A stretch of 64,000 bases of DNA, from contig JAFCMP010000542.1 in NCBI GenBank assembly GCA_017506865.1, positions 558,001 to 622,000 of the forward strand, in the 5' to 3' direction. This DNA comes from Tribonema minus (Eukaryota; Sar; Xanthophyceae; Tribonematales; Tribonemataceae). The notes beneath the pieces are model-generated. The model saw nothing but the letters and a program-made list of their open reading frames with translations, had not been told where the DNA came from and did no database searches. A program made the translations under genes and the position numbers. Shown here one piece after another: positions 8,850 to 32,754 of this stretch. How positions within the stretch are numbered: position 1 is the stretch's first letter; every line of letters begins with the position of its first letter.

Positions 8850-9965
8850 AGCTTCGCACCTGAATCTTAAATGGGCAGAAGCACAGAAGCGCAGAGTGCC
8901 CACACACATCTCACTCATGTGAATTGTACATTTGAAGTTGTGTGAAGCCTTGCTTGTACGCACTGAGCTTGGGGGCATGCAACGATGCCCCATTATTATA
9001 GTATTTCTGACATCACCATGACCTGATCGAGATGTAATATAAGGCTCGTTGACCAGCATCAGCATCTGTTGCTCAAGCACTGATGCAGTACATCACAGTA
9101 GGATGTAGCCTCATATCTCACAAACCACATTGTGTTCGCGTTGTTCTATCTGTTGTACCCAGATGACACCAAGGCGGAGGAGTCCATTACGTCCACCACA
9201 CCCAAGTCAGTAACGCCCCCGGCCGTTGCCGCTCAAGCCGCCCACCCGGTGCGCACCATGCCACCGGTGCTGCGGCTTGAAAGCGACAGCATGGTGCCGC
9301 TCGCCCCCAGAGCTGCAGCTGCGGCACCGGCGCCCATTCACCACATCAGCCGTAAGCTGATCCTGAACGAGGTTTCCCGGATATCAGCTGGCCCTTGCGG
9401 GTGACACTGCCATGCGCACCGTTGGAGCCACCACGGTAGGGGGGGGACTTCTGATGACGGAGGTGGACATCTACTGCCCCTACCCTTACCAGTGGCGCGA
9501 CTTCATGGCTGCCCTGAACACTTGTCGCTCAGTCGCTGACGCTTGCAGCGTGATGTTCACAGTCGGCAGCGCTTGCATCCGCATCACCACACCATGCGGC
9601 ATGCACCTTGATGCTGTAGGAATCTACCGCGTCCCGGTGATGCGCAAGCTGCGGGAGGTGTCGGTGCTGCTGCATGCACAAGCTGTTGCCAATCCTGACA
9701 ACGGCCTCACTACGTGTGAAGCTGCTGTTTGCACGGCGCTCGCCCCACTGCGTGTACCACCCAGCAGTGCAGCGACCATGCAGTTCTCCCCCCTCCTAGA
9801 TGGGCTGTACTGGGGGCTCGCTCAGGTCGGGGATGAGATTGTGAGGCTTAGAGTCCTCACATATACGGACCGGGCGCAGCATGTCGTATGCCGCCTAATT
9901 GTGGGGGATGCGTAAGCAGCAAGTAGGAGAGCAGGGGGGGGGCTCAGACTCCAAGTAGAAGCAGC
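8850..9965 (+). repeat. left arm of large inverted repeat (pair A)
   Basis: This 1.1-kb arm is the reverse complement, with roughly 75-95% local identity by eye, of 10978-12085. It contains one copy of the YWG-family gene plus about 270 bases of upstream sequence. The outer part is more diverged than the gene part. The loop between the arms is 9966-10977. Confidence 0.8.
9163..9915 (+). pseudogene. YWG-family gene copy A-left (frameshifted)
   Basis: Member of a family I do not recognise. An intron acceptor (AG at 9161-9162) opens an Ala/Pro-rich segment, then HHISRKLILNEV. The frame then slips by one base near 9371. Reading resumes with GYQLALAGDTAMRTVGATT, TEVDIYCPYPYQWRDF, and the C-terminal signature LDGLYWGL ... 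VRLRVLTYTDRAQHVV, ending with a TAA stop at 9913-9915. The same slip is present in the inverted copy at 11029-11746, whereas the 14-15 kb copies lack it at that point. Function is unknown. The protein has Cys-rich spots but no known catalytic motif that I can see. Confidence 0.6.
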
Positions 9966-10977
9966 AGTCAAGGCTGCATAGAAGCGACGTGTGTGCAGGT
10001 GTGTACAGGGGGGTGCAGGGTACTGCAGGGGGATGAAGGAACCCATGGGGCTCAGGATGGCCAACTGGTGAAGTTGGTGTGTGATCGCGAAAGCGAAAGG
10101 AGAGTGTGTGGGAGAGGCTTCACGAAATGCTTTCTGCTTGTGCTTTGAGGCTTATGGTACATGCAGTGCAGCAGCAGCGAGTGTTTGTGTGGACGCTTGT
10201 TGTCACGACGCAGCATGGACACACTTGTTGTCACGATGCAGCACCAACCGCTACAGTCACTGTGTCTCTCAACAGCGACGAAGGGATGCAGGGGCAATGA
10301 AAGATTCTTGGGAACGCATAGACACTCGAGCACTTGCATAGAAGTACATACTTCAAGTACATTGGCCTAGCTGGCAGCATTGGGCCATTGGCAGGGTACG
10401 CTCCGAGTTCCGGCTCGGCAGTTCCAGGAAGAGGTTTAAACTGGTTCAGGGCCGGTGGCTGGGTCTGTAGTAGCCGGAACCTCCGGAACTAGAAAACATT
10501 CGCAAACGTCACAAAGCACGTCTGCCAGCACCGTAAGCCTGCTGCAGCAGCTCACACGTCTGTTTCCGAGCGTTGCCTTGAAGTGCAAGTACGGTTGCGA
10601 CCACTTGCGACTACTTCCGCCTGCAACTCTAGGTCTAGGACTAGGGTTATACCAAACCCTAGAACTAGGGCTAGGGTTAGGGCTAAGGTTATGTTGCCGA
10701 CTGCAACTAGGGTTATGTTCAAAGTGTGCATTTTGCTCACACAAGCCAATGAGGCACCCACTGTGGGCACTTAACGCCCTCCACGGAGTGTAAAGGCTGT
10801 CTAGACACCTGCTGACGCATGTGGTGACAGTTGAAGGCCGCAATGTAGTTCCGGAGGTTCCGGGAGTTCCGGCAGGAGCCGGCGTTCCTGAACTGAAACT
10901 CGGAGGCCTCTGAGGTTTGTGCGCGTACCCTGGCATTGGCGGCAGGCAGCCCCCCGAAAGTTAGACTTCGCCCTTTC
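9966..10977. other. loop of inverted repeat A, itself containing a second inverted repeat
   Basis: Within the loop, 10395-10500 is inverted relative to 10846-10945, with shared CCGGAGGTTCCGG and GCGTACCCTGGCA stretches. The innermost segment 10506-10845 contains TTAGGG/CTAGGG-like motifs at 10629-10716. 9966-10394 looks like an insertion present only in the left half. No exon recognised. Confidence 0.55.
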
Positions 10978-12085
10978 GCTGCTTCTACTCGGAGTCTGAG
11001 CCCCCCCCCCTGCTCTCCTACTTGCTGCTTACGCATCTCCCACAATTGGGCGGCATACGACATGCTGCGCCCGGTCCGTATATGTGAGGACTCTAAGCCT
11101 CACAATCTCATCCCCGACCCGAGCGAACCCCCAGTACAGCCCATCTAGGAGGGGGGAGAACTGTGTGGTCGCTGCACTGCTGGGTGGTACACGCAGTGGG
11201 GCGAGCGCCGTGCAAACAGCGGCTTAACACGTAGTGAGGCCGTTGTCAGGATTGGCAACAGCTTGTGCATGCAGCAGCACCGACACCTCCCGCAGCTTGC
11301 GCATCACCGGGACGCGGTAGATTCCTACAGCATCAAAGTGCATGCCGCATGGTGTGGTGATGCGGATGCACGCGCTGCCGACTGTAGACATCACGCTGCA
11401 GGCGTCGGCGCTGTACTCCGATTGAGTACAAGTGTTCAGGGCAGCCATGAAGTCGCGCCACTGGTAAGGGTAGGGGCAGTAGATGTCCACCTCCGTCATC
11501 AGAACTCCCCCCCCCACCGTGGTGGCTCCAACGGTGCGCATCGCAGTATCACCCGCAAGGGCCAGCTGATATCCGGGAAACCTCGTTCAGGATCAGCTTA
11601 CGGCTGATGTGGTGAATGGGCGCCAGTGCCGCAGCTGCTGCAGCTCTGGGGGCGAGCGGCACCATGCTGTCGCTTTCAAGCCGCAGCACCGGCGGCATGA
11701 TGCGCACCGGGTGGGCGGCTTGAGCGGCAACGGCCGGGGGCGTCACTGAGCAGGGTGTGGTGGCCTGAATAGTCTCGTCCGCCTTTACATCGTTTGTGTA
11801 CAGTTACTGTAGGAAAAACAACACTATGTGGTTTGTGAGATATGAGGCTACATCCTTTGTACAGCAACAGATGCCGATGCTGGTCGAAAAGCCCTGCACA
11901 CATCTTGATCAGATCATGGTGATGTCAGACATAATAGAAGATAGGCATTGCTGCATGGCCCGAGGCTCACTGTGCACCAGCATGGCTTTATACAACTTCA
12001 AGTGTGCTGTTCACAAAGCAGGCGTGTTTACACCGCGCTTTGTTTCTGCCCATTCAAGTCAGGGTCGTGACGAGCTTCAATTTCC
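10978..12085 (-). repeat. right arm of large inverted repeat (pair A)
   Basis: Reverse complement of 8850-9965. Beyond the gene copy it continues into sequence also found as a direct repeat at 15350-15650, so the arm is part of the larger duplicated unit described at 11760-14022. Confidence 0.8.
11029..11746 (-). pseudogene. YWG-family gene copy A-right (frameshift plus nonsense)
   Basis: Inverted partner of 9163-9915. It shares the partner's frameshift after LILNEV and additionally turns a GAA codon into TAA at about 11224. The rest of the frame (AAVCTALAPLRVPPSSAAT, then LDGLYWGF and RLRVLTYTDRAQHVV) stays readable down to 11029. It is therefore disabled at two places. It faces the left copy tail to tail. 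Confidence 0.65.
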
Positions 12086-14022
12086 AATTACTTCAGAAGT
12101 ATACCATGATTCAGATTCAAAGCAGACCTCTGAGGATATGACGCCCATAATTTGAGTGGTCTCAGCCAAACCCAACGATGTCCGGGCAAGCCGATTCAGG
12201 TAGGCTGTGAGATTGCCTGACCATGCTGAAGTAACTGATGAGCCCAAGCGACAGACAAGCTTGATCGCATGCCATGCATGCCCTCTGTGCTGTCACCAGC
12301 AGTGTAGCTGCATTGAATGCCTTCATGATTTCATGGGGCTCATCACAATCCCAGGGCCTGAGCGCTACTTGTTACACTCATAAGACTATGAGTGTGCAAG
12401 TGCACTGGTAGCCACCAAGAAGAAGAGTTCGTGTGCCGCAGCCTGAGGGCCTTGCAAATTCTGCTGGAAGGACCGCCGCAGTTGAGACACACCATCAAGT
12501 CTTCAGCGTTTGCTTCAAAGTAATTAAAGGTGTATACAAGTTTTGACAGCCTCACCTGGCGCCTTGGCGGCTGCTGACGATCACAGGCGTCGCAGAAATG
12601 CCCCCCTCCTCTGCACTCTGTGGAAAAACAGAATTGGTGGCAACATACAGGACATCTGCATTGTCACAATTGAGTCCATTGGTAGGCAGCACACCGACAT
12701 GACACATTGTCAATGAAAGAGGTTGTGCATTGCTTGTGGGTACTGCTGCAATGGACCGACCAATGGGAGAAGTCTGTTAAGACAGGGGCACCTCCAAGTG
12801 TACCACAAATGGTTGCGCACTATCTGGTCAGACTTCCTTAACCAGATAGCCAGTTGCCTCACATGCATGATGCACCCCTACCTCACAAGTCCTCATTCGC
12901 CATGTGGCAGGGGAATGTAGGGAGCATAACATAACACATGCTCAACTCATTGTTTGCTCAACTCAATGGCCTTGTCATTGAGATCTTGAGATATCGCGCA
13001 GTTCTCTCTTGACAACGGCAATTGCAACCCCCCCATATAATGGTTCAGGGTATTGAAGGTGGAGTTATTCATGAGGTGCGCATAGTATAGTATTCCATAG
13101 ACATGGAACAGGACAAGAATGTCAAGACGGAGAGTGCATGGGGTATCTTCAAGTTCCCAACGTGCAAGCATAAATGCAATGCTCAACATGCGTTGAATGC
13201 TGTCAACACCTGCCTTGACAATGTACCCCCCCCCCCCCCCCCTAAAACACATACAAGTGGCCAGAAGAAGCTTGCCAAACGAACAGCATGCACCACTTTA
13301 AAGCAAAGCAATCTGCGCTTGTAGGCGGCAGAAGGAGCTTAACAACAGCACAACACAACACTCCAGTAGGTGAGATTGATGACAGACGCATGGCCCTATA
13401 TTAAAAGCTCCAGCTGCGCGCCAAACCAAACTTCAAGTTCTAATGCATTTGCTGAGACTCACCTCTCACAGTAGCGTCCTTTTCAACCAACTCCCTGGTT
13501 ATTGAAGGCTGCTTCACTAGGAATCATGAAGCCACTATCCTGCGAGTCCCAGTCTTTGAGCAGAGCATTCGCTTACTGGCACCACCTGCTGCGCATGCAG
13601 AGCAAGGCACGACACTCAACATTGTAAACACATGTGCTGATAGTTGAGCAAGAACCATGGAGTCAAGGACTGCACACGTATATGGGGGCTCTTTCAGCAC
13701 CTTCGTGGGTCTCTCTCAGTACAGTGAATGAGCTTGCACATGGCTCACCACCAAGCCCACGTACCACGCTGAGGTCGACACCATGGCAGGGACTGATGAA
13801 TCCGCATGCATGATGCAGGCAATCTCGACCACCGTATGATGTGGCAATGCAGGACTTGTGGAACATTTTGGTACAGTAACTGGCATGACATTATAATATC
13901 GTGGTATTGTTTGACTCAGGGCCAACTGCTGCAGCAGCGGCGACTATGGTGATTGGCGGAAGGCACTGGCGGCTAACCATTCCTTGTCACCTAGACCTCT
14001 ACGATCTTTTTTCGGTTTCATA
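11760..14022. mobile_element. element 1: right part of a TIR-bearing repeat unit
   Basis: This 2.2-kb mostly non-coding block matches 15350-17458 over almost its entire length, with small indels. It ends at 14022 in sequence that reads, on the minus strand, TATGAAACCGAA then AGATCGTAGAGGTCTAGGTG. That is nearly the same end as element 2 (17458). I could not find its left terminal repeat upstream of 8850, so the left boundary of element 1 is unknown. A poly-C tract lies at 13225-13242. A fragment of repeat R (see 34140-35115) is embedded at about 13710-13790. Confidence 0.6.
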
Positions 14023-14254
14023 ATCTGGTGCAGCAAAATGATAGTCATTGGACCAGCAATTGTTTGATGTATGAAAAACGAATCAAAGATCGTTGAGCTC
14101 TAGGTGACAAGGGATGTGTAGCACATACGCGTTGCAGCATGGAGTACCATTTACAGGAAAGGCCAAATCGCTTAAATCTTGCATGCACATAGCTTTGCAC
14201 AAAGTATTTCCGCACGCTCTGTGCAACATGGGCACTTTGCTCCATCTTTGGTAT

Positions 14255-14830
14255 AAAGCATGCCGCCGGTGCGCCGGCTTGACAGCGACAGCGACAATCC
14301 CCATCCGCAGCTGCGGCAACGGCGCCTGAATACCCTATCAGCCGTAAGCTCATCTTCGATGGGGTGTCGGTGTACCAGCTGGCACTCGCAGGCGACACTG
14401 ACATGAGCACCATCGGAGCCACCACGGTGGGGGGGGGCTCATGATGACGGAGGTGGACATTCACTGCCCCTACCCCTACCAGTAGCGCGACTTCACGGCT
14501 GCCATGAACACCCGTCCTCAGTCGAAGTACAGCGCTGACGCTTGCAGCGTGATGTTTACAGTCGGCAGCGCGTGCATCCGCATAGCGACTCCATGCGGCA
14601 TTCACCTTGATGCGATAGAACTCTACCGCGTTCCGGCGATGCGCCAGCTACGGCAGGTGTCGCTGCTGCCAGTGCTGCATGCGCAAGCTGTTGCAAACCC
14701 TGGCAACAGCCTCACTACGTGTGAAGCTGCTGTGTGCAGGGCGCTCGCCCCACTGCGTGTGCCACCCAGGAGTTGGGAGACCATGGTGTTTAACCCCCAC
14801 TTGGGCAGGTGCTACTGGGGGTCCCCCCTC
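14255..14830 (+). pseudogene. YWG-family gene copy B-left
   Basis: Reads PVRRLDSDSDNPHPQLRQRR-like then ISRKLIFDGVSVYQLALAGD. It shifts frame at a poly-G run near 14430 and has TAG at 14482-14484 in place of the Trp codon of YPYQWRDF. It then continues with ADACSVMFTVGSACIRIATP and a final PHLGRCYWG before running into the inverted copy. At least two disabling lesions are seen. The coding part downstream of the stop is well preserved, so decay is fairly recent. Confidence 0.6.
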
Positions 14831-15345
14831 TCCACTTGCGCATGCACTGGCAGCTGCAGCAACACTCGCCGCAGCTGGCGCACCACTGAGACACGGTAGA
14901 TTTCTATCACATCTAGGTGAACGCCGCAGGGCAAAGCAATGCAGATGCACGAGCTGCCGACTGTGAACATCACGCTGCAAGCGTCAGCACTGTACTCCGC
15001 GTGAGGGCGGGTGTAGAACGCAGTCGCAAAATCGCGTCACTGGTAGGGGTACGGGCAGTAGATGTCCTCCTCCGTCATCAGGAGTCCCCCCCCCCACCGT
15101 GGTGGCTCCGACGGTGCGCATGGCAATGTCGCCTGCGAGTGCCAGCTGATAGCCTGGCACGTCGGTCAGAATCAGCATGCGGCTAATCGGGTACACGGGC
15201 GCCGTTGCCGTAGCTGCAGCCTTAGGGGAGAGTAGACCCATTATGGCGCTGTCAAGTCGCAGCACTGGCGGCATTGTGCGCACTGGGTTAACGGCCTGAG
15301 GGGCAATGGCTGGGGGTGTCGTTATGCAAGGTGTGATGGCCTTGA
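14820..15345 (-). pseudogene. YWG-family gene copy B-right
   Basis: Inverted partner of 14255-14830 with almost no spacer. On the minus strand it reads VLRLDSAIMGLLSPKAAATA, then YPISRMLILTDVPGYQLALA, keeping frame through the point where pair A is shifted. It slips at the poly-G run, and the Trp codon of YPYQWRDF is TGA here. The C-terminal YWG part is missing, lost at the palindrome centre. Confidence 0.6.
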
Positions 15346-17458
15346 AAGTCGCTTCTGTCTTTACGTCGTTGGTGTTGTGTACAATTACTGTATGGTTTGT
15401 GAGATATGAGGCTACATGCTATGTACTTTTAACAGATGCCGATGCTGGTCGAAAAGCCCTGCACACATTTTGATCAGATCATGGTGATGTCAGATATAAT
15501 ACAAGATAGGCATTGCTGCATGGCCCGGGGCTCACTGCAAAACCAGCATGGCTTCATACAACTTCAAGTGTGCTCTTCACATGTCAGGTGTGTGTAGGTA
15601 CACCGCACTTTGCTCCTGCCCATTCAAGTCAGGGTCGTGACGAGCTTCAATTTCCAACTACTGAATATCATAGTTCAGATTCAAAGCAGACTTGTAAAGC
15701 CCATAGTTTGAGTGGTCTCAGCCAAAGTCAGCGATGTCTGGGCAAGCTGATCCAGGTAGGCTCTGAGATTGCCTGACCATGCTACAGTAACTGATGAGCC
15801 CAAACGACAGATAAGCTTGATTGCATGCCAGGCATGTCCCCTGTGCTGTCACCATCAGTGCAGCTGCATTGCATGCCTTCATGATTTCATGGGGCTCATT
15901 ACAACCCCAGGGCCTGAGTGCTACTTGTTATCATAAGAATACAAGTGTGCAAGTGCATAGGTAGTCACCAAGAAGAAAAATTCGTGTGCCGCAGCCTGAG
16001 GGCCTTGCAAACTCCGCTGCAGGCGCCGCCGCCTGAGTTGAAACACACCATCATGTCTTCAGCGTTTGCTTCACAAGTAATTCAAGGTGTATAGAAGTAC
16101 ATGTTTTGACAGCCTCACCTGTCTTGGCGGCTGCTGACAATCACAAGGAGCCGCAACAATGTTCCCAGGAGCAGGACTGCCTCTGTGGAAAGGAAATTTG
16201 TGGCAACAGACAGGACATGTGCATTTTCACAATGGAGTCCATCGGTATGCAGTGGACCGACATAATACAATGAGAGATTTTATGGTTTTATAATGGGTCC
16301 TGCTGCAATGAGCCGACCAACAGGAGAAGTCCTCATCTGCCATCTGGCAGGGGAACGCAGGGAGCATTGCACAACACATGCTCCACTCACTTTAACTAAA
16401 CTCGGGGTCCTCTTCATTGAGATCTTGAGATATCGCGCAGTTCTCTGTTGACAACGGCAATTGCAACCCACATGTGTTTCAAAGTAACGAAGGTGGATTC
16501 TAAATCCTCGTTCCTGCGGTTATTTCATGGACATGAAACAGGACAAATATGTCAAGACAGAGAGTGCATGGGGTACCTTCCCAATTTGCAAGCATACATG
16601 CAATGCTCAACATGCATTAAATGCTCGTAACACCTGCCTCGACCATATACCCACCCCCCCACCCCCCCAAACACATACAAGTGGTCAGAAGGAGCTTGCC
16701 AGGAGAACAGCATGCACCATTCTAAAGCAGAGCAACCTGCGCTTGTAGGTGGCAGAAGGAGCTTAACAACAGCACAACACAACACTCCAGTAGGTGAAAT
16801 TGATTACAGACGCATGGCCCTATATTGAAGGCTCCAGCTGCGCGCCAAACCATATTTTAAGTTCTAATGCATTTGCTGAGACTCACCACTCACAGTAGCA
16901 TCCTATTTGACTCCCTGGTTATTGAAGGCAGCTTCACTGGAAATCATCAAGCCACTCTCCTAGGCGTTCCAGCCTTCGCGCACAGCATTCGCTTGCTGGC
17001 ACCACATGCTGCGCATGCAGAACAAGGCAAAACACTCAAAGTTGTAAACATATGTGCTGATTGCTGAGCCATCAGCGTGCATTCAGTCACAAACCGGAAG
17101 AAGGAATTCTCGACGGCAGTGAAGCGGGCGTGTACATCAGCAGTGCACTTGAAGTGGTGGCTGTTGTGAGCATTAACTGAGCACTGTCCCCTTGAGCCTG
17201 GCAGTTGAGCACTGCTGCCCGGGCTGTCAATCGCGGCAGAGGGCGTGAAGTTCCTCGCAAACGCATGAGCGGTGTCAAACAAGCAGCAGAAGTATGATGA
17301 AGTCATAACATATCAGCACGCCAACGTGGATATGGTGGCGCTGTTTGGCTCGTGGCCAGTTGCTACAGCAGCGGCGACCACGGTTATTGGTTGAAGGCAC
17401 TTGCGGCTAACCACCCCTTGTCACGTAGACCTCTACAATCTTTTGACTCATTTTCATA

Positions 17459-19239
17459 GATGCGATGAATGTGTGAGGTGGTTTCATGCAGTCTGGATCC
17501 TAGCACCACCTCTATACTTCACAGTACAGTACATGCAAATGATGACACAATAATCCTTGTGAAGGCCATGCCTGGACTCATGCTAAAATGAACTGTCAAG
17601 TGTTGCAAGCCATGCCTCCGCACTATAGTATACGCAGTGCTTGAAGTTTGTATTGTGCTGACAAATGTCAAGGCATGATGCTACTTTGCAGAGCCATCAG
17701 AACCGTACAACTCCTGCAGCTGACTGTCACCCACGTAGCCCACTGAGAAACAAACACAGTAATCAGGAGTAACAGTTGCTCGAGACAGCGGCAACAGGGT
17801 GTGTCCCCACGTTAAGCCACCCGTTGAGGCGTGGACTGACCTGGAAAAGGTGCAGGACCGCTTGTTCGCGCGGCAAATGTCGTCATCATCCGCCGTGCTG
17901 ACTTGTTGAATGTGTGCGTCCAGGCGTATCGGCGCCTGTACGACATAATGGATAGAGTTTCAGTCTCCGAAGCTGAAGGCTGCAGGTTCGTGTCCTGCCG
18001 AGATCGCCATTGTGGTGACTGGGTGGTGTCCCAGCTCACAGTGTTGACTCTTCAGGAGTGAGGAACTGCTCCATTGCTCCAGTTAAAGCCTAAAGCCTGC
18101 GAATGTTGCCTTGACAAAGCAGCGGCGCTTGCAACTACTCTCTCCAGATACCAAGTGTCATGGCGCCGGTAAACGTGGCGGTGCAAAAGCAGACAAAAGC
18201 CTTCCTTAAAGCATGTAGATCGGTTTCTGATCATTAGGCGAACACAAGCACAAATGCAGCTGAGCGCTGCTGCCATTTCAACTTGAGGAGCCTGTTGTAC
18301 AAATACGGGCACAACTCTCCAACTGAGCCCTGGCCACCTCAAGGCGTGCTACGTGCTGCCAACACACATCTATCATCCTAATGCACGTTAATATGCCGCT
18401 TCACGACAAATGCTGCAGAAGATTGACGAACCGCCCAGTGCAACGTGCTGCCGCGTTAGCCTCCTGTTGAGCTGTACATCGTGCCGCACATCCATGTTGA
18501 AATAATCGTGTCCGTCAGTCCAGCGTGCATAGTTGCCTGGAATAGCATACAGCACGCACAATAGTAACGCAATGGCGTTTCATGAAACTCAAACGCGGAG
18601 GGTAGAGGCATAGGTCAACAAGTCAGAGGCGACACTCAGACGCACAAGCCAAACACTTGAATGGCTGTGATCGAAGACGTTATGCAAGAGCAGCAGTGCG
18701 GTGACGAGAGCCTGCTGTGTCAGGTGCATTGCATCAGGTGCCAAGTGATTGAAATCGGGAGTCATCAATTTGGTTTCTTGCAATTGATTCACAATCACAG
18801 ATATAAATCATATGATGCACTCGTGGCAGGCTAGACCAGCAACACAAGGGCATGCCTGCAACAGATGCAGGCAGAGGTGGGGTAGGAGAACTGGTAAAAC
18901 ACACAAACACTTTGACGTTGACAGCAAGTAGATGTGACAGTGCTAATCGACCGCGCCGCATATCACAACGGAACGCCATTCCGACTATGTTCATAGTGAT
19001 TCAACACCGACAAATACCAGCAATAACAGCTAGACGCACGGTTGTATGTCGAAACCGCTGACAAATGGCACAACCTCCTTTGCTGTACGCAGGTGGTGAT
19101 GAAGGAGGGAGGGGATCAAGAGCTTGGACAGAGTGGGCTGCAGCGTGGACGGCCGCCCGAGCCGCCAGACGCAGGTTCTCAAAGCATCGCTTGTCGAGCT
19201 GGCTTGCGTATAAGTAGGGACAGTACTCGGCAAGCAGCT
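17459..19239. other. spacer with SINE-like piece and no resolved gene
   Basis: No exon chain found. The only structured item is the tRNA-Arg-like segment at 17930-18010 (own entry). ORFs on either strand are short and lack recognisable domains or consistent splice signals. Confidence 0.45.
17930..18010 (+). repeat. tRNA-Arg(CCG)-like segment, probably a SINE head or tRNA pseudogene
   Basis: The sequence contains TAATGGATA in the D-arm position. A five-pair anticodon stem TCAGT/GCTGA encloses the loop CTCCGAA (anticodon CCG at 17967-17969). A T-arm GCAGG/CCTGC follows. The T-loop is TTCGTGT, lacking the near-universal A58, and no matching acceptor stem pairs with the 3' side, so it is not a working tRNA gene. 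The flanking 3' sequence CCTGCCGAGATCGCCATTGT recurs with one insertion at about 30486, consistent with a dispersed SINE-like family. Confidence 0.45.
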
Positions 19240-20240
19240 AGGAGTACAACAGACCACAGAGGCTACTGCCAGAAGGACAACAGAAGGCCGCGTGGTCGTC
19301 TCCAAGGATTTTCCTCGGAGGCGGCCTGCGGTCCGCGACCTCCTGCCCTGCGAGCTTGAGGTCTGTGTTTTGCCTAGGGCGATGCAACAAATCCACGAGA
19401 TGGCATGACGCACGCCCCAGACGCTGCCCAACTGTCTGACAATGGCATACTACAACACTAGGGCGCTGGCACCAGAATCAGCCTGGTTTGTCGGGGGGGC
19501 ATTAGTGCTCTCTTTTTGTTGCAGCATTACACACACTTGTGCTTGCTGCTCAAAGCGCCCTCTGCTGTTCGGATGGTGTGTCCTCTGTGATCTACTAACA
19601 TATTAGATGGCGGAAGTAGAGCCCAGAGGTACCATCGTCCTCGCAACATAGATGATGTTGACCGAACTTAGACTTGAGGAGACTTGTTCCAGAACTCGGT
19701 ATGCGTCTACTACACATCGAGCACCTTGGCCTGGGCTTGTAGTACATAGCAAGACATGAGCATGAATGCATGTCTCAACAAAACACGACATAGCTGGCAT
19801 CGGACATAGGCCAGGCTATCCTCTGGATTTGAGAACCCCCTGCGGCATGGAAGGGGAAGAAGGGTGCTGTCTCTGGCGGCCCCCCCAACCTGCTGCTCTC
19901 GCAGAGGCTCTGTGTAAATAGCGTGGTTGCCTCTCGATAGTACACTAACACTGACGGCGGTTGGCGATGTGCATGCAATACTGAACCGCAGGAGGGTAGC
20001 ACTAGCTGTTTTCCCTCCTCTGGGGGTATGGAGGTATTCCGCTGCCTCCATGCTTCCCGGGCCGTCCCTGTGTCGGATGCCAGCCGTAGATTATTTAGAT
20101 AAGTATGGACATTAATAGCATGGCTGCGTAGCTGTGTTAGTCCCCTGCTATGGTCTCCACCTTGTTGTGGTGGGGGGGCTTGGTGGTGAGCCTTGGGCAA
20201 GTTCACTGCTGTACTAAGGGAGACCCGGGTAGGTGCATAG
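19240..20240 (-). repeat. repeat R, copy 1 (inverted)
   Basis: A 1-kb segment that is the reverse complement of 34140-35115, with high identity over its length, and also related to 35200-36190. Several frames stay open in one copy but not in the others, so I do not call a protein. Confidence 0.75.
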
Positions 20241-21430
20241 GCCTTGTTGTTAGTGGTGCAAGCAGGGGCCACTTTACTACACGCTTTCCAGTTGCTGCTG
20301 CACATGGCATGGCAGCACGTGGCGCTGCCATGCTGTCAGTGCTTGTGGCACTCTGCACCGAAGTGCTAAGGTTGCCAGCTGCTGTGGTAACCATGGGCAA
20401 CAAAGTTTGTTGGCTGCACACAGTTGTCTGCTCAAATTGCAGTGTCTACTACAGGTGACATCGCTGCAGAGCATTCTATAGCGTCATCCTGCTGAGCATT
20501 GCCACGGGAGCAGGGCACGCACACATGCCGCGCCTGCGCGCGCAGACAGGGATCATGGCAGCCAGCGTGTCACATTATCTTATAAGTAGGATGTACAGCT
20601 GTGATGATGATTGCGCGCCTCATAATGATGGTTTCGCAGCGCTACGTGCAAGCAAAGGGCGGGAGGGGGAGGGGGGTATAGTTTACACATTACGCTGGCA
20701 GAGTATTGTTGCTGCTGATCATCACTGATGTTGGATCATCATCCTGGGGATAACACGTCGTTGTGATGCTCCTAGCTCATGACGGTGTGCCACATGAAGT
20801 TCACGACAAGGCTGGTCGGGTCGGACTTTAACAAGAGCGGCGGAGTTGACAGAATGTTTCTGGTCTTGAGAAGAAATCTCAGGTGAGCAAGAGACTTGCC
20901 CTTGTCTTGTTGTTTGAAGCAGCATGGCAATCCAGCATGCGCCTTCTTTTGAGCAGCACAACAGCTGAGTAGTTCCTGCACCCGACCCTTGTGTACAAAG
21001 TGGCATGTCGAACAATGCAGCTTTTCTATCAGGCATTCACTGCTTGTATCAAGATTCCTCGCTGATAATTGCATACAATGAGGCAGGCTGAAGTCATTGC
21101 ATCCAGCGTCTGTCACCGAGCAGGGGTCTTGCCGTTCGGGCGTCAGTTTATACCTGTGTTCATCATGCAGCATTTCGATGTTTCCAGCTCTCAGCATTTT
21201 CGTGCGCATGCTGATAGTTTCCAAGTCGTACTACATATGTTCATCACTTATATATACAGACACAGGTACCCAACACGAGTGATGTTTGATGCAAACTTGC
21301 CCCATGTGTCGGCCGTGTTGTGCTCTCGTTCCGTTTGCACAGGTGACAACGCTCAGCATCACACGCGCCTCACACTTCATCTCGGCAACCACTGCTGCTC
21401 AGCCAGAAAGACAATGTGTTACGACATCAT

Positions 21431-21462
<32 letters not shown>

Positions 21463-22204
21463 GCTTGTGTTCTGCGGAGAGCACTCAAGCAGGGGGCAGG
21501 GGGAACAAGAGATGCAAAGGAGCGCACTGAGCTTGCATATAGACACTATGAGACACTATGAGTACATACATTGGCACAGCTGGCTGCCAAGCATCGGTAC
21601 CAAGTGACTATACTTCAACAATTGCACGGCGTTAATGGCAGCATATGCCATTACACTGCTGTGCGCTTGTCAGCGCTATACATCCGTGAAACAGCGTCAT
21701 CAATAAACATGACACTTTTGAATCGGTTCTGACTGGGTCTGATTTTCAACAACGTTATTCTGGCGCTATTGTGTACTGCATATTATGCATCATAGCGGTG
21801 ATGTTGCAAGAGCTGATGTCACACACACACATTCTTTGCGTTAGTCTATGTATTGAGTTGGCTGCATCTAGCACAATGTTGTACTCCGAAGAAAACGGTC
21901 ATGTATTGTACTTTATAATAATTCTCGCTCAGGGCGCGAAAAAGCCCAGATGATTGGCACCTAGCTGTAAGGAATCTACATGTCGTATGACAGTCTGAAA
22001 GTGTCGCAACGACAACCACTCAAACGCCACCGCCGCCAAATGGCATCTCGGGGTCCTCCCCTACGTCCTCCTCCATGTGCCCCCCCCCCCTGGATTCTGC
22101 CATGTGTGTCATGACACGGCCAGAGTACGTGGGGGTGCCCGCTTGTATAGCCAGCCCTCACCCTCTGTATGTACCCCAAATCCGAACTCTTGTGTGTCTT
22201 GCAG
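20241..22204. other. spacer with one isolated exon-like segment
   Basis: 20779-20882 (+) is exon-like: it starts with ATG, encodes 34 residues including FTTRLVGSDFNKSGGVDRMF, and ends at a good AG|GTGAGC donor. Its phase does not join the next candidate exon at 22205. The stretch also holds a CAT/CAG microsatellite at 21426-21462 and repeat-E copy 2 at 21340-21410. The retrotransposon tail at 21918-22137 is listed separately. Confidence 0.35.
21918..22137 (-). mobile_element. 5'-truncated non-LTR retrotransposon copy (3' end only)
   Basis: About 210 bases matching the 3' end of the minus-strand element at 49845-51736, including the codons for the Gly/Arg-rich C-terminus (RDAIWRR, LSGCR) and the 3' untranslated part ending near ATTCTCGCTCAG. 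Truncation at the 5' side with a shared 3' end is the typical outcome of target-primed reverse transcription. Confidence 0.6.
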
Positions 22205-23539
22205 TACCCAGCATGGGTGGCACTCTACCCGTCACATCTGGGCGTCATGGGGGACAGGGGCGACGACAGCTGCATGAAGTCCGTCACCGGCATTGGCGTG
22301 CTGCTGCAGGTAATGAGAATGCATCGTGCCGTGTTCTGTGCCTGCACTCTGGTTAATTGCACTTGATGCATGACAACTGATGCTATGATTCTCTATTGGA
22401 AACAAAATGTATTTTCTTGTATAGCAGTCTTGGTCTTGGCAAGAACGTGTGGAAAATGCAGACAAAGCCGCAAGCGAGATTACTAAACGACAAGAGACCA
22501 CATGTGCCTGGTGTGCCTGACAGACTCTCATGGTGTACTTGCACCTCTCATGCATTAGTCCCCAGTCAGCATAAATTACGTTCGCATTGAAATTGTCTGC
22601 ATCCAACAAGGGTCATGCCTACTCAGATAGGAAACATCATCGTCTATATCAATGTATTCGTCAGGCTGCGCGCAGGCCCAGCACATGCACGCATTAAGGA
22701 CAAGCAATCCGGAACTACAGCGATTGGGTGTATCCTGGCTTATAGTTCAACTGCTCAGTACTTGTTTTTATGTGCAGACACACGCCTCGTGAACTCTTGA
22801 ACAGCGACGAAAGGCCCAGCCAGTACCTCCTTGTTACTTGCACAAGTTGCGCGACTATGCCACAGGTGCCTGTTGCTGCACAATTCAGCAGGTTCGTGCA
22901 GAGATCACGAAGCAGTCGCAGTGCCTTCAGTCATGGCATAAACATATCATCAACAGTAACAGCGGATTCGGCACTTGCAGGTATCGGATTGTTGGTTTTT
23001 GCTGTGCGCACTTGCGGCATTACGCTCATATGTCGAAGTATACTGGAACAGTGTCGTAGGTACCTGGATAGTTTTGAAGGTTCAACACAGCACGACATGA
23101 AGGCAAGGATTGAGGTGACAGCACGTACAAGAAACAACAAAGACCTACATCAGTGAAAGGAGATGTACGCAAGACACACATGCAGCTGCTGCATGATCAA
23201 TTCAAATTTAGCCATTGACCACATTAGGTTTATGATTGTCAGTATAAGCTACACGCACTCACTGTGCTATCTGCCGGCATCATGTTCACACAACGGCATG
23301 ACACATGGCAACAGGATACTTGATCTCCCCGTTAAAGTCTAGTGCCAGGAACAGCAGGATGTCTGCCCCACACTTTGCTACTTTAGACACCTCACGCAGT
23401 GTCCACACCATTCAACAACTGCTAGACTCCTGCAGTGCGAGACTCTTGCAGTGCGGGCGACAAGGGGTTACTGAATGTGGTTTCTGTACCCAGTGAAAAC
23501 GTACAAGTCGGGTCAAGTGGCCAAGGCATTGGACACTGA
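22205..23539 (+). CDS. putative three-exon gene, not recognised (5' partial)
   Basis: Three candidate exons with matching phases: 22205-22309 (acceptor CTTGCAG, ends CTGCAG|GTAATG), 22805-22980 (acceptor GAACAG, ends TGCAG|GTATCG) and 23452-23539 (acceptor CTTGCAG, stop TGA). The first encodes PSHLGVMGDRGDDSCMKSV, the second includes VRAEITKQSQCLQSWHK, the third NVVSVPSENVQVG. No family recognised. A further coding-looking segment, 23998-24157 (Ala/Val-rich, includes AKLAVLAVEGNQNLP), follows but is not joined. Phase agreement across two introns is the main support. Confidence 0.3.
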
Positions 23540-24157
23540 CAACGCGCTCAATGCAGACATAATCATCAAGTGCGGGAATGAGATGCACAAGTACGTGACA
23601 ACAATATGTGTTGGCAGGTAACTGGCTGCAGTATTACAATATGTCGCACGCTCTACGTGCACGTGAACGCCATCGACTGACCAGGTAGATCACCGTATGA
23701 GGAACCCTTTAATGCCCGTGCTGCTGGAGTCCACTGGTTGTCTCAAATGGCCTAGATACCGCGTGAGGTGTCTATGCAGCAAAGCGTGGGGCAAATATCC
23801 TGCTGTAATACCTGGGTAATCTACCAGCAAAATGACTCAGAGGTGGCAGCAGCACAGTGACTGATATCGAAGCACTTAATTGGACAGAGCTCGTGGTGTG
23901 ACAACTGCGATGATGTGTGCTGCATGACTAACTTCGCATGTTTTCCTCTCCATTTCCAGGTGCAGGTGTTGTGTCTGATGGGGACGTGCTGCTGCTAGTA
24001 GTACTATTGCGGCAGTGCCCGCTGTTGCTGCCGAAGTCCAGGCTGAAGGCAGTGTGCAGGAGGTGGCAGCTAAGCTGGCAGTTCTGGCTGTTGAAGGGAA
24101 TCAGAACCTGCCAGTGTGTGACTCTCCCCCGACGACACACTGCTGTCAAGCTTTCAG

Positions 24158-25100
24158 GTGCGTGCGTCTGCTGCGATAACTTCTGTTTTGAGGAGATGTT
24201 GAGTTTTGGAAAGTGACGGTCACACACATTGTGGAATGGCGGCGGCTGTTGGCCACGATAGTAGTAGGCGGTGGTTCCATTTGGCGCATTGCTATTTTGT
24301 GGTAGTGTCAGTTTTCTTGGGGCCTTCTAATCCTTAAAGCTTGCAGAAGAGGACAGTAGCGAACCTAGCACTTGTTGTGTACGCTGTAGTTGGCTGAAGA
24401 GGTCTTCTTGTAGCACCACTCGTCTCAATGAGCACCACTTGCGGGAATTCTGTGTGCCCGGTCAGGACATGCCGCCCTAACATGTTAGGATTAAGGGCTA
24501 GGGTTGATCAAACCCTAGGGTAACAGCTAGGGTTGATCAACCTCTAGCCCTAACTGTAAGCAGAGACGCATGTAAATCCTAACCCTAATCCACATGACGC
24601 TCATTCTCTGGTGCGTCAATCAGGGCATAATAGTATCAGCATGCGCTATTGATTTTTCATTTTAGCTACAGTACTTACAACTACTGTAACTTTAGAAAGC
24701 AGAGCGGGTTGGGGTTGGTACACAGCCCTAACCCTCTGATGCTGCGCAGGACAGCACAATCTATTGATACACGTCTGCTTTGAACCAAAACAGAGCAACA
24801 ACCTGGCCACGGTTCCAGGTTTGGCAGAGCATTAGAAGAGCAGCATGTCACGACAAAACAGTCATAAAGTGAATGGGAGCACCAACTGACTGCAGTCTTC
24901 TAAGACTCTTCTTGCTCTGAGCTAACCTTGTGCTTAGCACAGCATATGGCGTGACTCCTAGTTTTTTATGCATAAAGCATACTTCGAAGTATACTAATCT
25001 ATACTTGCATGAATATGTGTCACTACTGCACTCTGTAGTCTGCATGTCATGCAACTGACACATCACCCGGTGCTGCACCATTTTCTCTCTCCCTCACCGC
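24158..25100. other. spacer with telomere-like motifs
   Basis: 24480-24600 contains scattered TTAGGG/CTAGGG and inverted CCCTAA motifs in both orientations. A perfect 14-base palindrome ATACTTCGAAGTAT lies at 24979-24992. No exon identified. Confidence 0.5.
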
Positions 25101-25800
25101 ATGCTGCTGCAGGCGCCATCACCCGCAGCAGCTGTGCCCGCTCATGACACGGCAGAAGCAGCTGCTGCATGCGCAGATCCCCTCCCACCGTCCATCGCAA
25201 CGCTGCAGCAGAGGAGAGTCGCTATCCAGCGGCGCCTGATCATCAGCGCACGCGAGGGACTTCTGGTGGCCGCTGCTGCATCGCAGGACAATCACCTGTT
25301 CGCAACGGCTTGCGCGTTGCTTTCGGGTGGCCTGGTGTTGATTGACGTTCACATCGCCAGCTCCAACGCTTCCCACAACATGGCTGCAGTTACGAATGAT
25401 GAGCAGTATGCCCCCATGTTGTGACCACCAGTAGCAGCGGCTATGGCGCCATCTTCGCCCTGGCCGGCCGTAGCATCCTGATCTCCGGGGAGTCGTGCAC
25501 CGATGATGGGCGTGATATACGCACATCGATCGGCTGCATGACATGGCGATCCTGCGTCAAGTGGCGGAGACGACACGGCTGCCTCCCAACGATGCGGCCA
25601 TGTACTTACATGCCGTGCGCAAAGCCCTGCGCCCTGTGTTGGTGGACAGGTTTGGCTTCAACATGCACTTCGACCCGCCCTTCACGGCTGTAGCTGCCTC
25701 TGAAGCACGCAACCACACAGTGTGGCGCATGCGGTCGGCGAACCGAAACACTCGAAGCCTGATAGCGGCGCCCCGGTGGCCGAGGCTTAGGCCCCAGTAG
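25101..25800 (+). pseudogene. YWG-family gene copy C-left (frameshifted, C-terminus lost)
   Basis: Runs in frame from AVPAHDTAEA through VAIQRRLIISAREGL and LLSGGLVLIDVHIASSN. It then loses one base and hits TGA near 25422, resumes with GYGAIFALAGRSILISGES, slips again near 25515, and continues RQVAETTRLPPNDAA ... VDRFGFNMHFDPPF. At about 25685 it runs into the palindrome centre, so the YWG/RLRV end is missing. Its inverted partner is 25557-26459. Confidence 0.6.
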
Positions 25801-26459
25801 CACCCGTGGAGGGCAGGGTCGAAGTGCATATTGAAGCCAAACCTGTCAACCAGCACAGGGCGCAGGGCCTTCAAGTTACGCACCGCACCCAGGAACGTGG
25901 CTGCGTCGTGGGGAGGCAGCTTCCGAATCGTCGTCTCCGCCACCTGACGCTGCATGGCCATGTCCTGCAGCCGATCGATGTGCATATACTCACGCGCATC
26001 GTCGGTGCTGGACTCGCCCGAGATGAGGATGCTACGGCCAGCTAGAGCGAAGATGGCGCCATAGCCGCCGCTGCTTCTGGTCAGTGCGATGGGGGCGTAG
26101 TATTGGTCGTTGGTCACTGCCGCCATGTCGTGGGAAGCGTTGGCGCTGGCGACATGAACGTCCATCAACACGAGGCCACCCGAGAGCAACGTGGGAGCCG
26201 TTGCAAACAGGTGGTCGTCCTGCGATACAGCAGCGGCCACTGAAAGTCCCTCACGCGCGCCGATGATCAGGCGACGCTGGATAGCGACCCCCCTCTGCTG
26301 TAGCGTTGTGATGAAGGGCAGGAGGGGGTCTGCATGCGCAGCAGCAGCTGCCATTATTATGACATATGTGGGTGCATTACAGCATTCCAATGAGATGTCT
26401 CGCAAAGGAGTAGGAACTTGATATCCTGTTGGCAGCTCAAGGTTTCCAGTTTTTTTCAT
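25557..26459 (-). CDS. YWG-family protein, copy C-right (300-residue open frame)
   Basis: The only long uninterrupted member of the family in the window. From about residue 37 it reads AAAAHADPLLPF, IQRRLIIGAREGL, LLSGGLVLMDVHVASAN, GYGAIFALAGRSILISGES, VAETTIRKLPPHDAA, VDRFGFNMHFDPALHG, YWGLSLGHRGAAIRLRV, FADRMRHTVW. The last 50 or so residues are antisense of the inverted left copy, so the native C-terminus has probably been replaced. Compared with the 9-15 kb copies, the order of blocks is the same (RRLI/RKLI, LSGGLVLMDV/VGGGLLMTEV, YWG, RLRV, DR..H), which is why I group them. The start codon is uncertain. Whether it is expressed cannot be told. Confidence 0.45.
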   Translation of the reverse strand: MKKTGNLELPTGYQVPTPLRDISLECCNAPTYVIIMAAAAAHADPLLPFITTLQQRGVAIQRRLIIGAREGLSVAAAVSQDDHLFATAPTLLSGGLVLMDVHVASANASHDMAAVTNDQYYAPIALTRSSGGYGAIFALAGRSILISGESSTDDAREYMHIDRLQDMAMQRQVAETTIRKLPPHDAATFLGAVRNLKALRPVLVDRFGFNMHFDPALHGCYWGLSLGHRGAAIRLRVFRFADRMRHTVWLRASEAATAVKGGSKCMLKPNLSTNTGRRALRTACKYMAASLGGSRVVSAT

Positions 26460-27380: not shown

Positions 27381-30300
27381 TGTGGTGGTGTGCCAACCAC
27401 AGAGGGTGAAAGTGTGTGAGACCCAGTCTCAACCTTGACTTGAAACAGCCGGAAATGCCAACTGCCTGGTGCCGTGGGAGGTGGACCGGAGCGCTCTCCC
27501 CAAGTGCAATATCACCCTGATATGCAAGCGTGGCTAAACAGGTAGAAGCAGAAGAAGCTGTGCCATGTTGAAGGTTAAAGTCGTGTCTGATTACTGCACA
27601 AAAGGCATTCGCAATGCAAGCCCTACTTCAACTACTGCTCCGCCTAGGGTTGCCTCACTACAATCGCCCCCTGCATGGCTCTTCCACTCCACAAGTCGAA
27701 AGCCATGCACTCATGTGAGCACTCATGTGAGGCGCCGTCGATACTACACAAGCAATACTGCTACAAAATGCAATGCAAGCACGGCTGTCATCCAGGACCG
27801 CCGAAACTCTCAAATAACACGGGCATATGGCATATACCAGCAAACCTCCGCCACCAACAAGTCTCAGAAAGACTGTGGCGCGTCTGGCTGGAGTGGCAAC
27901 TACATTGTTGCAAAACAACACATGACCTAACGCTGCAACAGACAAACTAACGAGCAAGCAACTGGCTCTGCTGCTATATGCGCCCCCGACATGTTGGCAC
28001 TGCGCAACCATCGCAAGCAAGCGCACCACCATTCTACAACTACTGTAGTATGTACGCCCCCGACATGTTGGCACTGCGCACTTATCCCCCCCCCCAGCGT
28101 TTGTGTAACACACGCAAAAGAAGTGCGCATGTACAGCTGAAACAAAACTAAGGGTGGGCGGGTGGGTTTGTGCGCCCAGGTGGTCAATGCAACACATTTC
28201 GACCTGTACGACAATCGCCCCCAGACACTACACTGCTGATGGTATGTAAGCGGTGTGGTGTCTAAACGTACAGGCTCAACAGTGAACCTGCAAACAAGCG
28301 CCCCCGTGAGCCAAACCGCTCAAGATGCACTGGTAATACACATGGCGCATAAAAGAGCTGCTGCCGTCTGTGTCTCACAAATGTCAGCGCAATATGCGCT
28401 AAGCACAGCCCGATTGCTGGTGGGAGACAATGCTGTGCTAATGTCAGCACCGCCGCGCCTCCCCGCTGTTGCTGAGTCTGGCGGCTGCGCGCCATCGCCA
28501 CGCCTCTCCTTGCTCGCATGCCGCCTGTGCAGCGCCTTATGCCGCGCCTGCCAGTCGCGGAGGCGCTGCTGCTCCTCAGGCGTATGCGCCGACCAGTACT
28601 CCCGCCGCTTCTGCTGCCGCCGCGAGAGCGGCCGTCCCAAGCTACTGCCTGCGGCGCGCATGCTGCGCCGCGCAGCGCTGATGCCGGCGCGCTGTTGCAT
28701 CGGTACCGTCGCCGTTACCGAGCTCGTCACACCCGTGCCGCCACTCTTGTGGCGTGTGCTGCCGCCGCCGCTGCTGCCGCCGCCGCGCGCGCCGCCGCTA
28801 CCGCCGCCGCCGCCGCTGCCGCCGCCGCGCGCGCCGCTGCTTCTGCCGCCACCGCCGCTGCCGCCGCCGCGCGCGCCGCCGCTACTGCCGTCACCGTCGC
28901 TGCACGCGCCGCTTCGCGCGCCGCCGCTGCGCGCTTGTGCAAGCACCCTAGGCAGTGCAGCAGCTATCCGCGCAGCTGAAGTGCCATCGTTGTGCGCGCC
29001 TCCATTGCGCGCACGCCCTGATGTTACTGCTGCCGCTGCCGGCGCTAGGAGCGGGGTTGCAGTGCCACCACTGTCACGCGCGCCGCTGTCGCATGCGCGC
29101 ACCGCTGTATGCGCCGCCGTTGTCGGCGCTGAGAGCACGGTGGCAGTGCCGCTGAGAGTGCCGCTGCTGCCAAGCGCGCCGCGCGCGAGAGTGCCGCTGC
29201 TGCCAAGCGCGCCGCCTCGCGCGCCGCCGCTGCCGCCCCGTGCTCCGCCGCTACCGCCGCCGCGTACGCCGCTGCAGCCGCCGCCGCTTCCGCCGCCGCG
29301 CGCGCCGCCGCTACTGTCGCCGCCGCCGCTGCCGCGCGGTGGGAGCGGGGCCGCAGTGTCGCCACTGTCACACGCGCCACTGCGTGCGCGCAGCGGTGAA
29401 AGCGCCGCTGTCGCCAGGGCCAAAAGCGCAGCTGCGGTGCCGCCGCTGTTGTGCTCGCCGATGTCGCATACAGGCACAGCTGCATGCGCCGCCGTCGTCG
29501 GCGCTGAGAGCACGACTGCAGTGCCGCTGCTGCCAAGCGCGCCACTGCTGCATGCTTGCGATGTTGAAAGCGCCTCCGTCGGCGCTGAGCGTGCGGCACA
29601 TACGCCGCCGCTGTTGTTGGCGCAGCTGTTGTTATCGCCTGCGCGCGCCGACGCCAGCACTGTAGCCATTCTTGCAGCATCCTCCTCCAGCTCCGACACC
29701 CGACTCCGCAGCTGCAACAGCGCTGCTGAATCAGCAGCGCATTGCCGCTCCAGCTCTCGCTGCGCTGCTGCCTCAGCCTTCTTGCTTTGCTGTAGCCGCT
29801 CTTGCAGGATGCTGACTCTCTGCTGCTCCTCAGCGACTCCCTGTGTGGCTTCTGCAAGGCACGTGCTGAGCCGGCGTCGCTCCTCCTGCAGTTTGACCTC
29901 CGCAGAGACAAAATAGGTCATTGCGCTGAGCACCTCACCAAGCTTTTCCCCCACGTCCCTGTCTCCGGTGCTGTAAAACCATTCCGAGGCTGAGCCCCAA
30001 CGTCCCTTCTTGAGCAGCCGGGTGTACACGCTAAGCGCTTCAGCCCGACTCGCAACAGCACGTTTCCCCCCCACCATTTTGCTTCCAGTAAAAGGCGTTA
30101 AGGTGCTGCTGAATAGTAGATGAGCACGTGCTGCCAGGAAGGTGGCAGTATGCTGAAGCAGCAGCTGCTGCTGCTGCTAAGTAGTGGAGAGTTGAAGGGC
30201 GCCTTACGACGAGCACGCCCCCAGCTATAGAAATCCCGAAAACTCTGCTGTCGCCGTTTACAGCTGCTGCTGCTGACCGGAACTCCGTGTGTGGCTGGTT

Positions 30301-30501: not shown

Positions 30502-32754
30502 TGTGGTGGTGTGCCAACCACAGAGGGTGAAAGTGTGTGAGACTCAGCCTCAACCTTGACTTGAAACAGCCGGAAATGCCCACTGCCTGGTGCCGTGGGA
30601 GGTGGACCGGAGCGCCCTCCCCAAGTGCAATATCACCCTGATATGCAAGCGTGGCTAAACAGGTAGAAGCAGAAGAAGCTGTGCCATGTTGAAGGTTAAA
30701 GTCGTGTCTGATTACTGCACAAAAGGCATTCGCAATGCAAGCCCTACTTCAACTACTGCTCCGCCTAGGGTTGCCTCACTACAATCGCCCCCTGCATGGC
30801 TCTTTCACTCCACAAGTCGGAAGCCATGCACTCATGTGAGGCGCCCTAGACACTACACATGCAATACTGCTACAAGATGCAATGCAAGCACGGCTGTCAT
30901 CCATGACCGCCGAAACTCTCAAATAACACGGGCATATGGCATATACCAGCAACCCTCTGCCACCAACAAGTCTCAGCAAGACTGTGGCGCGTCTGGCTGG
31001 AGTGGCAACTACGTTGTTGCAAAACAACACATGACCTAACGCTGCAACAGACAAACTAACGAGCAAGCAACTGGCTCTGCTGCTATATGCGCCCCCGACA
31101 TGTTGGCACTGCGCAACCAACGCAAGCAAGCGCACCACCATTCTACAACTACTGTAGTATGTACGCCCCCCACATGTTGGCACTGCGCACTTATCCCCCC
31201 CCCCCAGCGTTTGTGTAACACACGCAAAAGAAGTGCGCATGTACAGCTGAAACAAAACTAAGGGTGGGCGGGTGGGTTTGTGCGCCCAGGTGGTCAATGC
31301 AACGCATTTCGACCTGTACGACAATCGCCCCCAGACACTACACTGCTGATGGTATGTAAGCGGTGTGGTGTCTAAACGTACAGGCTCAACAGTGAACCTG
31401 CAAACAAGCGCCCCCGTGAGCCAAACCGCTCAAGATGCACTGGTAATACACATGGCGCATAAAAGAGCTGCTGCCGTCTGTGTCTCACAAATGTCAGCGC
31501 AATATGCGCTAAGCACAGCCCGATTGCTGGTGGGAGACAATGCTGTGCTAATGTCAGCACCGCCGCGCCTCCCCGCTGTTGCTGAGTCTGGCGGCTGCGC
31601 GCCATCGCCACGCCTCTCCTTGCTCGCATGCCGCCTGTGCAGCGCCTTATGCCGCGCCTGCCAGTCGCGGAGGCGCTGCTGCTCCTCAGGCGTATGCGCC
31701 GACCAGTACTCCCGCCGCTTCTGCTGCCGCCGCGAGAGCGGCCGTCCCAAGCTACTGCCTGCGGCGCGCATGCTGCGCCGCGCAGCGCTGTTGCCGGCGC
31801 GCTGTTGCATCGGTACCGTCGCCGTTACCGAGCTCGTCACACCCGTGCCGCCACTCTTGTGGCGTGTGCTGCCGCCGCCGCTGCTGCCGCCGCCGCGCGC
31901 GCCGCCGCTACCGCCGCCGCCGCCGCTGCCGCCGTCGCGTGCGCCGCTGCAGCCGCCGCCGCTGCCGCCGCCGCGCGCGCCGCCGCTACTGTCGCCGCCG
32001 CCACTGCCGCGCGCTGGGAGCGGGGCCGCAGTGTCGCCACTGTCACACGCGCCACTGCGTGCGCGCAGCGGTGAAAGCGCCGCTGTCGCCGGGGCCAAAA
32101 GCGCAGCTGCGGTGCCGCCGCTGTTGTGCCCGCCGATGTCGCATGCAGGCACAGCTGCATGCGCCGCCGTTGTCGGCGCTGAGAGCACGACTGCAGTGCC
32201 GCTGCTGCCAAGCGCGCCACTGCTGCATGCTTGCGATGTTGGAAGCGCCTCCGTCGGCGCTGAGCGTGCGGCACATACGCCGCCGCTGTTGTTGGCGCAG
32301 CTGTTGGTGCCCGCGTTGCCATCGGCTGCGCGCGCCGACGCCAGCACTGTAGCCATTCTCGCAGCATCCTCCTCCAGCTCCGACACCCGACTCCGCAGCT
32401 GCAACAGCGCTGCTGAATCAGCAGCGCATTGCCGCTCCAGCTCTCGCTGCGCTGCTGCCTCAGCCTTCTTGCTTTGCTGTAGCCGCTCTTGCAGGATGCT
32501 GACTCTCTGCTGCTCCTCAGCGACTCCCTGTGTGGCTTCTGCAAGGCACGTGCTGAGCCGGCGTCGCTCCTCCTGCAGTTTGACCTCCGCAGAGACAAAA
32601 TAGGTCATTGCGCTGAGCACCTCACCAAGCTTTTCCCCCACGTCCCTGTCTCCGGTGCTGTAAAACCATTCCGAGGCTGAGCCCCAACGTCCCTTCTTGA
32701 GCAGCCGGGTGTACACGCTAAGCGCTTCAGCCCGACTCGCAACAGCACGTTTCC
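30502..32754. repeat. tandem duplication unit 2
   Basis: Second copy of the unit at 27381. It diverges from unit 1 abruptly at GGAAACGTGCTG (32753 side), where the gene's N-terminal codons meet a third, rearranged fragment. Confidence 0.85.

Follow-up and report, generated by a model that had tools for sequence, protein, structure and literature searches.

An apparently fast-evolving protein family of the alga Tribonema minus lies mostly in tail-to-tail inverted pairs, candidate hairpin-RNA loci

Background

Flies and land plants provide the best-known hairpin-RNA loci derived from gene families. Here we describe a protein family of the xanthophycean alga Tribonema minus (GenBank assembly GCA_017506865.1) that occurs mostly as inverted gene pairs, three of which lie in a stretch of 64,000 nucleotides (nt) of contig JAFCMP010000542.1 (positions 558,001 to 622,000, forward strand), analysed at full length and hereafter called the window. 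Plant microRNA (miRNA) genes, as Allen et al. reportedly described in 2004, can originate when a target gene is duplicated in inverted orientation; our pairs resemble them in being inverted copies of coding sequence that decay over time, and differ in having arms hundreds of nt long that still look partly protein-like and in being known, in this as in the following comparisons, from DNA alone. Palindromic gene pairs of the Y-chromosome type undergo arm-to-arm gene conversion, and one of our pairs shows a conversion-like pattern between its inverted arms, but the arms here are short, the genes mostly broken and the divergence strong in most pairs.

By analogy, the nearest working system would be the hairpin RNA (hpRNA) loci of Drosophila, such as hp-pncr009 beside the 825-Oak genes; these loci are interspersed with genes of the family, and one of them arose with a single gene between it and the gene it came from (PMC10317233). 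What the two systems have in common is that the inverted repeats look like genes of one family and are found between or close to those genes, together with the rapid turnover and the proposed derivation from targets of the fly loci (PMC10317233). In the fly, transcripts, Dcr-2-dependent small interfering RNAs (siRNAs) and derepressed targets were measured (PMC10317233), whereas the DNA described here holds no siRNA-length exact match to a single copy. Rice has two adjacent inverted pairs of pseudogene paralogues with hairpin siRNAs, <2 kb apart, one with a stem of ~155 bp at 96% identity and the other with a stem of ~185 bp at 83% (PMC2708354); the adjacent inverted gene copies are shared with our loci, but the rice pairs number two and were defined with small-RNA reads, whereas six pairs here belong to one family. 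Among green algae, miRNA precursors derive from inverted repeats of a transposon in Volvox (PMC5093975) and fairly long hairpins are imprecisely processed in Chlamydomonas (PMC5511227), and green algae therefore process such structures. In a limited search of open papers, by title and opening of the abstract, none described the present family or an alga with inverted pairs throughout a gene family. Even if the pairs produced no small RNAs, the repeated formation of palindromes by a single family would still be unusual.

A protein family mostly in inverted pairs

In the 158-Mb genome (554 contigs; the window is C539:558001-622000 and the other contigs, C16, C50, C59, C113 and C540, are numbered likewise), nine loci of the family were gathered by searches with single proteins, all locus counts being lower bounds, and six of these loci are inverted pairs while three are single. 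That one family lies mostly in inverted pairs is a real and unusual pattern. All six pairs run sense then antisense, as the arms of a gene-derived inverted repeat. The window was picked because pairs had been seen in it, and outside it three of the six family loci are paired. Weak matches at C59:168763 (E 0.035, adjoining a listed match), C80 (E 0.19), C290 (E 0.077) and C401 (E 0.29), together with repeat matches to loci already listed, were excluded from the clustered family list.

The concentration of pairs in this family, within the sequence examined, emerges from two comparisons. When 16 stretches totalling 170,516 bases (the window, L021-L027, L041-L047 and L049), many of which had been retrieved on account of the family and which covered some but not every one of its loci, were scanned for inverted pairs with arms of at least 150 nt, a gap of at most 3 kb and at least 100 bits, every pair recovered was a family member except one, at C113:614.8 kb. 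Six comparison stretches of 5 kb, one from base 100,001 of each of six contigs, held no inverted pair of this size, and one of them contained a ~73-bp palindrome. Clusters of the family had mixed strands in 6/9 cases at a distance of 1.5 or 2 kb, in 5/10 at 1 kb and in 5/8 at 3 kb, the last because the first two loci of the window merge; for a control repeat family (query window 19775-20302), the 91 matches formed 42 clusters at 3 kb, with 0/42 mixed-strand (Fisher p 4.7e-6 for 6/9 against 0/42, with one control family that is perhaps not a protein gene). Copies of this control repeat occupy 19091-20248, 34128-35141 and 35216-36335 of the window, and others stand on either side of the C113 pair, inverted with respect to each other (C113:628.5 kb on the plus and 636.9 kb on the minus strand).

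The pair at C113:614.8 kb (L026) is a palindrome of another gene (C113:614807-615447), with a longest perfect stem of 33 nt and a single relative placed upstream of the C113:622 kb family copy, at a distance of ~0.7 kb. It was considered as a seventh family member, but its three-sequence profile gave no match to the family (hhalign probability 0.1, a weak test) and it was treated as background.

In the window, locus 1 consists of a sense left arm (8859-9965, plus strand), with the family frames 9102-9404 and then 9367-9915, which pairs with an antisense copy on the minus strand (12063-10978) at 87% identity. The loop between them (9966-10977) measures exactly 1012 nt and contains an insertion-like element of ~545 nt (about 10390-10934), the terminal inverted repeats of which are short and imperfect. 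In blocks of 60 nt, the arms are 93-100% identical from 9216 on, bar one block at 75% with a gap, and 55-78% identical in the outer blocks. At locus 2, the left arm (14259-14821, plus strand) ends just beyond the YWG motif, and the right arm (14835-15633, minus strand) extends further upstream than the left one while its 3' end stops before YWG; 14260-14687 pairs with 15274-14835 at 78%, with 147 nt between the paired arms, or a gap of ~13 nt if the match to locus 1 extends the left arm to 14821. Locus 3 comprises a left arm with frame changes (25158-25690, plus strand), ending near FDP, and a minus-strand frame of 300 amino acids (aa) at 25557-26459, made of the right arm (to ~26351) and a C-terminal tail derived from the antisense of the left arm; the plus strand of this frame carries six stops. 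Here, 25158-26351 matches its own reverse complement at 79% (blocks 60-90%), and the innermost arms lie 125 nt apart.

The original prediction, made from the letters of the window, had described these three loci as tail-to-tail inverted pairs of one protein family, and both the arm alignments and the sense-then-antisense orientation of all three bear this out. Its loop sizes were exact for locus 1 (1012 nt) and close for locus 3 (about 130), while its loop of about zero at locus 2 becomes 147 nt, or ~13 nt with the extended arm. Counting the pairing as having occurred three times, however, overstated its independence: a direct segmental duplication links 11271-13649 to 14850-17069 (both plus strand; 80-83% alike), so that the right arm and ~2 kb of flank are shared between loci 1 and 2, which are therefore not independent. 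Locus 3 is a distant member, with 34% aa identity to locus 1 over ~78 residues, and the landmarks YWG and RLRV align across the family alignments.

The other paired loci are C113:632609-634064 (85% identity, innermost spacer 26 nt), C16:40901-41554 (72%, spacer 47 nt) and an 802-nt palindrome near 53.9-54.7 kb of C540 (76%). Single copies were found at C113:578.9 kb (L014), within a 703-aa open frame, at C113:622 kb (L006), divided between two frames, and at C59:168.4 kb, with one TAG within the match and no palindrome in the surrounding 3.1 kb. The original prediction would have been refuted by a genome in which most copies are single and intact, which is not the case here: pairs make up six of the nine loci, and L014 alone among the three single copies has a frame that stays open throughout the domain.

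Protein identity between loci on different contigs is ~30-45%, except between C540 and L014 (60-67%), and the homology of this L014/C540 branch to the window copies is supported by profile comparison (hhalign probability 94.9, E 4.3e-8, 179 columns). The family members scanned against Pfam, which did not include the C16 and C59 copies, gave nothing better than E 0.4; sequence searches of the PDB yielded only three matches, all with E 0.11 or worse, and no relative turned up when viral contigs were scanned twice with single proteins. An AlphaFold model of the family reached a mean predicted local distance difference test (pLDDT) score of 35. The family is apparently undescribed and fast-evolving.

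Fold points and gene conversion

The fold point, judged by eye from translations and arm ends, differs from pair to pair. It lies beyond the stop codon at locus 1, with its long loop, and beyond RLRV in both arms of the C113 pair. At locus 2, the left arm turns just beyond YWG and the right arm is shorter; at locus 3, the left arm reaches FDP and the right arm passes HTVW; at C16, the arms end at ALAPLS (left) and LLGG (right), and at C540 near PYPRCV (left) and at SYWS (right). These differences suggest that the pairs arose in separate events. At C113, C540 and locus 3, the arms are closer to each other than to any other copy found, those of C540 being 75.7% identical to each other against 70.1 and 69.5% to L014.

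Locus 1 carries a further signature. When its left and right arms (1L, 1R) were compared with the right arm of locus 2 (2R), a three-sequence comparison that gives branch lengths and not a rooted tree, the sites at which one sequence alone differs numbered 27 for 1L, 6 for 2R and 10 for 1R at 8859-9040, and 8, 98 and 12, respectively, in the core from 9216 on. Therefore, 1R is closest to 2R outside the core and to 1L inside it. With the left arm of locus 2 (2L) added, 26 core sites group (1L,1R)|(2L,2R), none (1L,2L)|(1R,2R) and 2 the third way, in agreement with conversion. The arms of this locus are more alike than would be expected from their flanks and history, and probably underwent gene conversion. 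The simplest explanation of so sharp a switch would be that the inverted pair predates the segmental duplication and that the core of the pair was homogenised later. A palindrome-making mechanism, one of the sources that the original prediction had offered for such pairs, agrees both with the differing fold points and with this conversion-like pattern.

Sequence evolution of the arms

Stops or frame changes, also scored by eye, interrupt 9 of the 12 arms; the right arms of locus 3 and C16 and the left arm of C540 kept their frame over the part of the domain that they hold. Some frame changes may stem from assembly errors at homopolymers. The synonymous divergence (dS) between arms ranges from 0.08 in the core of locus 1 (0.02 in its short upstream piece) to 0.63 at C16, so that the pairs are of unequal age or were last converted at different times.

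Selection appears to differ between the C540 pair and its single relative. The arms of C540 are separated by 90 nonsynonymous and 41 synonymous changes, evenly spread over codon positions (41/44/46), and the L014 branch with its stem carries 56 and 50 (29/24/53). Over the whole aligned stretch, this contrast (Fisher p 0.016) makes the C540 arms look relaxed and the L014 branch constrained.

Potential for RNA silencing

It is plausible, as a hypothesis, that the pairs feed RNA silencing. As expected of any inverted repeat, the computed RNA fold of locus 3 is one stem (-959.7 kcal/mol). Two sets of Argonaute (Piwi) exons face each other ~10 kb apart on C50 (27107-30150, plus strand; 40388-43706, minus strand), and RNase III was found at three places in the genome. 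Loci 1 and 2 share exact stretches of up to 38 nt, so that small RNAs from either could match the other.

Two results lend no support to active silencing, nor to the small-RNA source that the original prediction had offered as one possibility. The longest exact matches of the pairs to the three single copies span 20 nt (C113 pair to C113:622 kb) and 19 nt (C540 to L014), the others 16 nt or less. A strand-wise G-U bias, an optional sign of selection on pairing in hpRNAs, was absent from all six pairs of the family (p 0.30-0.71), while p was 0.035, uncorrected, for the palindrome outside the family (L026). We regard active small-RNA production from the pairs as somewhat doubtful.

Origin and role of the pairs

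Our best reading is an inverted partial gene duplication, followed by conversion between arms, that would have left candidate hairpin-RNA loci. At the level of DNA, we give a probability of about 0.65 to the account in which family copies have come to stand inverted and tail to tail, most likely because part of a gene was duplicated in inverse orientation at its 3' end or shortly before it; conversion then probably homogenised the arms of locus 1. Where the fold point falls inside the coding region (loci 2, 3, C16 and C540), the copies would have no ordinary 3' ends, so that a transcript from either side would enter the other copy and fold as one long hairpin. A putative RNA interference machinery might cut such hairpins into small RNAs acting, now or once, on relatives of the family.

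Several observations weigh against parts of this reading. Another gene is also palindromic (C113:614.8 kb), and the tendency is therefore not exclusive to the family. Differences between arms are biased to third codon positions (111/97/198 pooled over the six loci, p 2.5e-10; p for individual loci lies between 6.8e-5, at locus 3, and 0.12, at locus 1), and the rough ratio of nonsynonymous to synonymous divergence (dN/dS) between arms is 0.28-0.44 in all six, with 0.76 in the short upstream piece of locus 1 (three changes); the arms therefore diverged partly while coding and were not dead copies from the start. The contrast between the C540 arms and the L014 gene is not significant in the domain alone (p 0.14). 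At locus 1, the zone 9041-9215 is mixed (2R alone differing at 25 sites, 1L alone at 23). Moreover, 2L shares 81.6 and 81.9% identity with the two locus 1 arms but only 79.0% with 2R, its partner, and three fold points cluster near YWG, leaving room for fewer origins. Since conversion can also make old pairs look young, fewer and older pairs may stand in place of separate origins.

As to the role of the pairs, neutral palindromes, formed by template switching in replication, then converted and decaying, with a hairpin RNA that serves no role, come somewhat short of even odds in our estimate and are compatible with the DNA-level account. They would explain the stops and frame changes in most arms, the lack of G-U asymmetry in the family pairs, the lack of an exact 21-nt match to any single copy and the nearby palindrome of another gene, but fit less well with the strong concentration of pairs in one family and with the third-position bias between arms. 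That the inverted duplicates were instead kept as dedicated hpRNA loci, since their small RNAs silence active family members, appears rather unlikely: the uniform sense-then-antisense order, the spacers of 26-147 nt in the four pairs measured apart from locus 1 (1012 nt), the coexistence of the open gene L014 with its sister pair C540, the 38-nt stretches common to loci 1 and 2 and the presence of Argonaute would all suit such loci, against which stand exact matches to single copies of at most 19-20 nt and no sign of selection on pairing. An arms race as in Drosophila, in which a fast-evolving and perhaps selfish family would be repeatedly answered by its own inverted duplicates acting as hairpin siRNA loci, with C540 as a hairpin born from an L014-type gene and the C113 pair ~10 kb from a single relative, is a reading to which we give little credence.

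Less probable again is that both arms were long-working, convergent protein-coding genes broken lately, some of the breaks being perhaps homopolymer errors. The low dN/dS with its third-position excess, and open frames of 303 aa (locus 3 right arm) and 213 aa (C16 right arm), agree with working genes. The fold point, however, lies within the coding region at at least four loci, so that one or both arms are truncated, the locus 3 frame finishes in antisense-derived residues, an internal stop is common to both C113 arms, and the C540 arms look relaxed over their whole aligned stretch. A single mobile palindromic (foldback) element copied to many places might account for pairs on four contigs, but fold points, spacers and arm limits differ between loci and, C540/L014 excepted, proteins of different contigs are only ~30-45% alike, which makes it very improbable. 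Palindromes are also a known type of assembly artefact, and fold-back reads could have produced such pairs; with arms that differ by ~3% (locus 1 core) to 28%, differences biased by codon position and unequal limits, we consider this the remotest of the explanations.

Neighbouring sequences

The coding density is low. A stretch resembling a cellulose-synthase-like glycosyltransferase (3987-4808) scored slightly over the Pfam cut-off, and a weak DUF1499 match (43216-44094) lay under it. One borderline tRNA-like match (17942-17998) barely exceeded the Rfam gathering score, and a tandem repeat with a 43-bp unit occupies 42208-42372. Finally, the segments 27381-30067 and 30502-32754 repeat each other in direct tandem at 91-96% identity, and one of the two contains a 585-aa frame.

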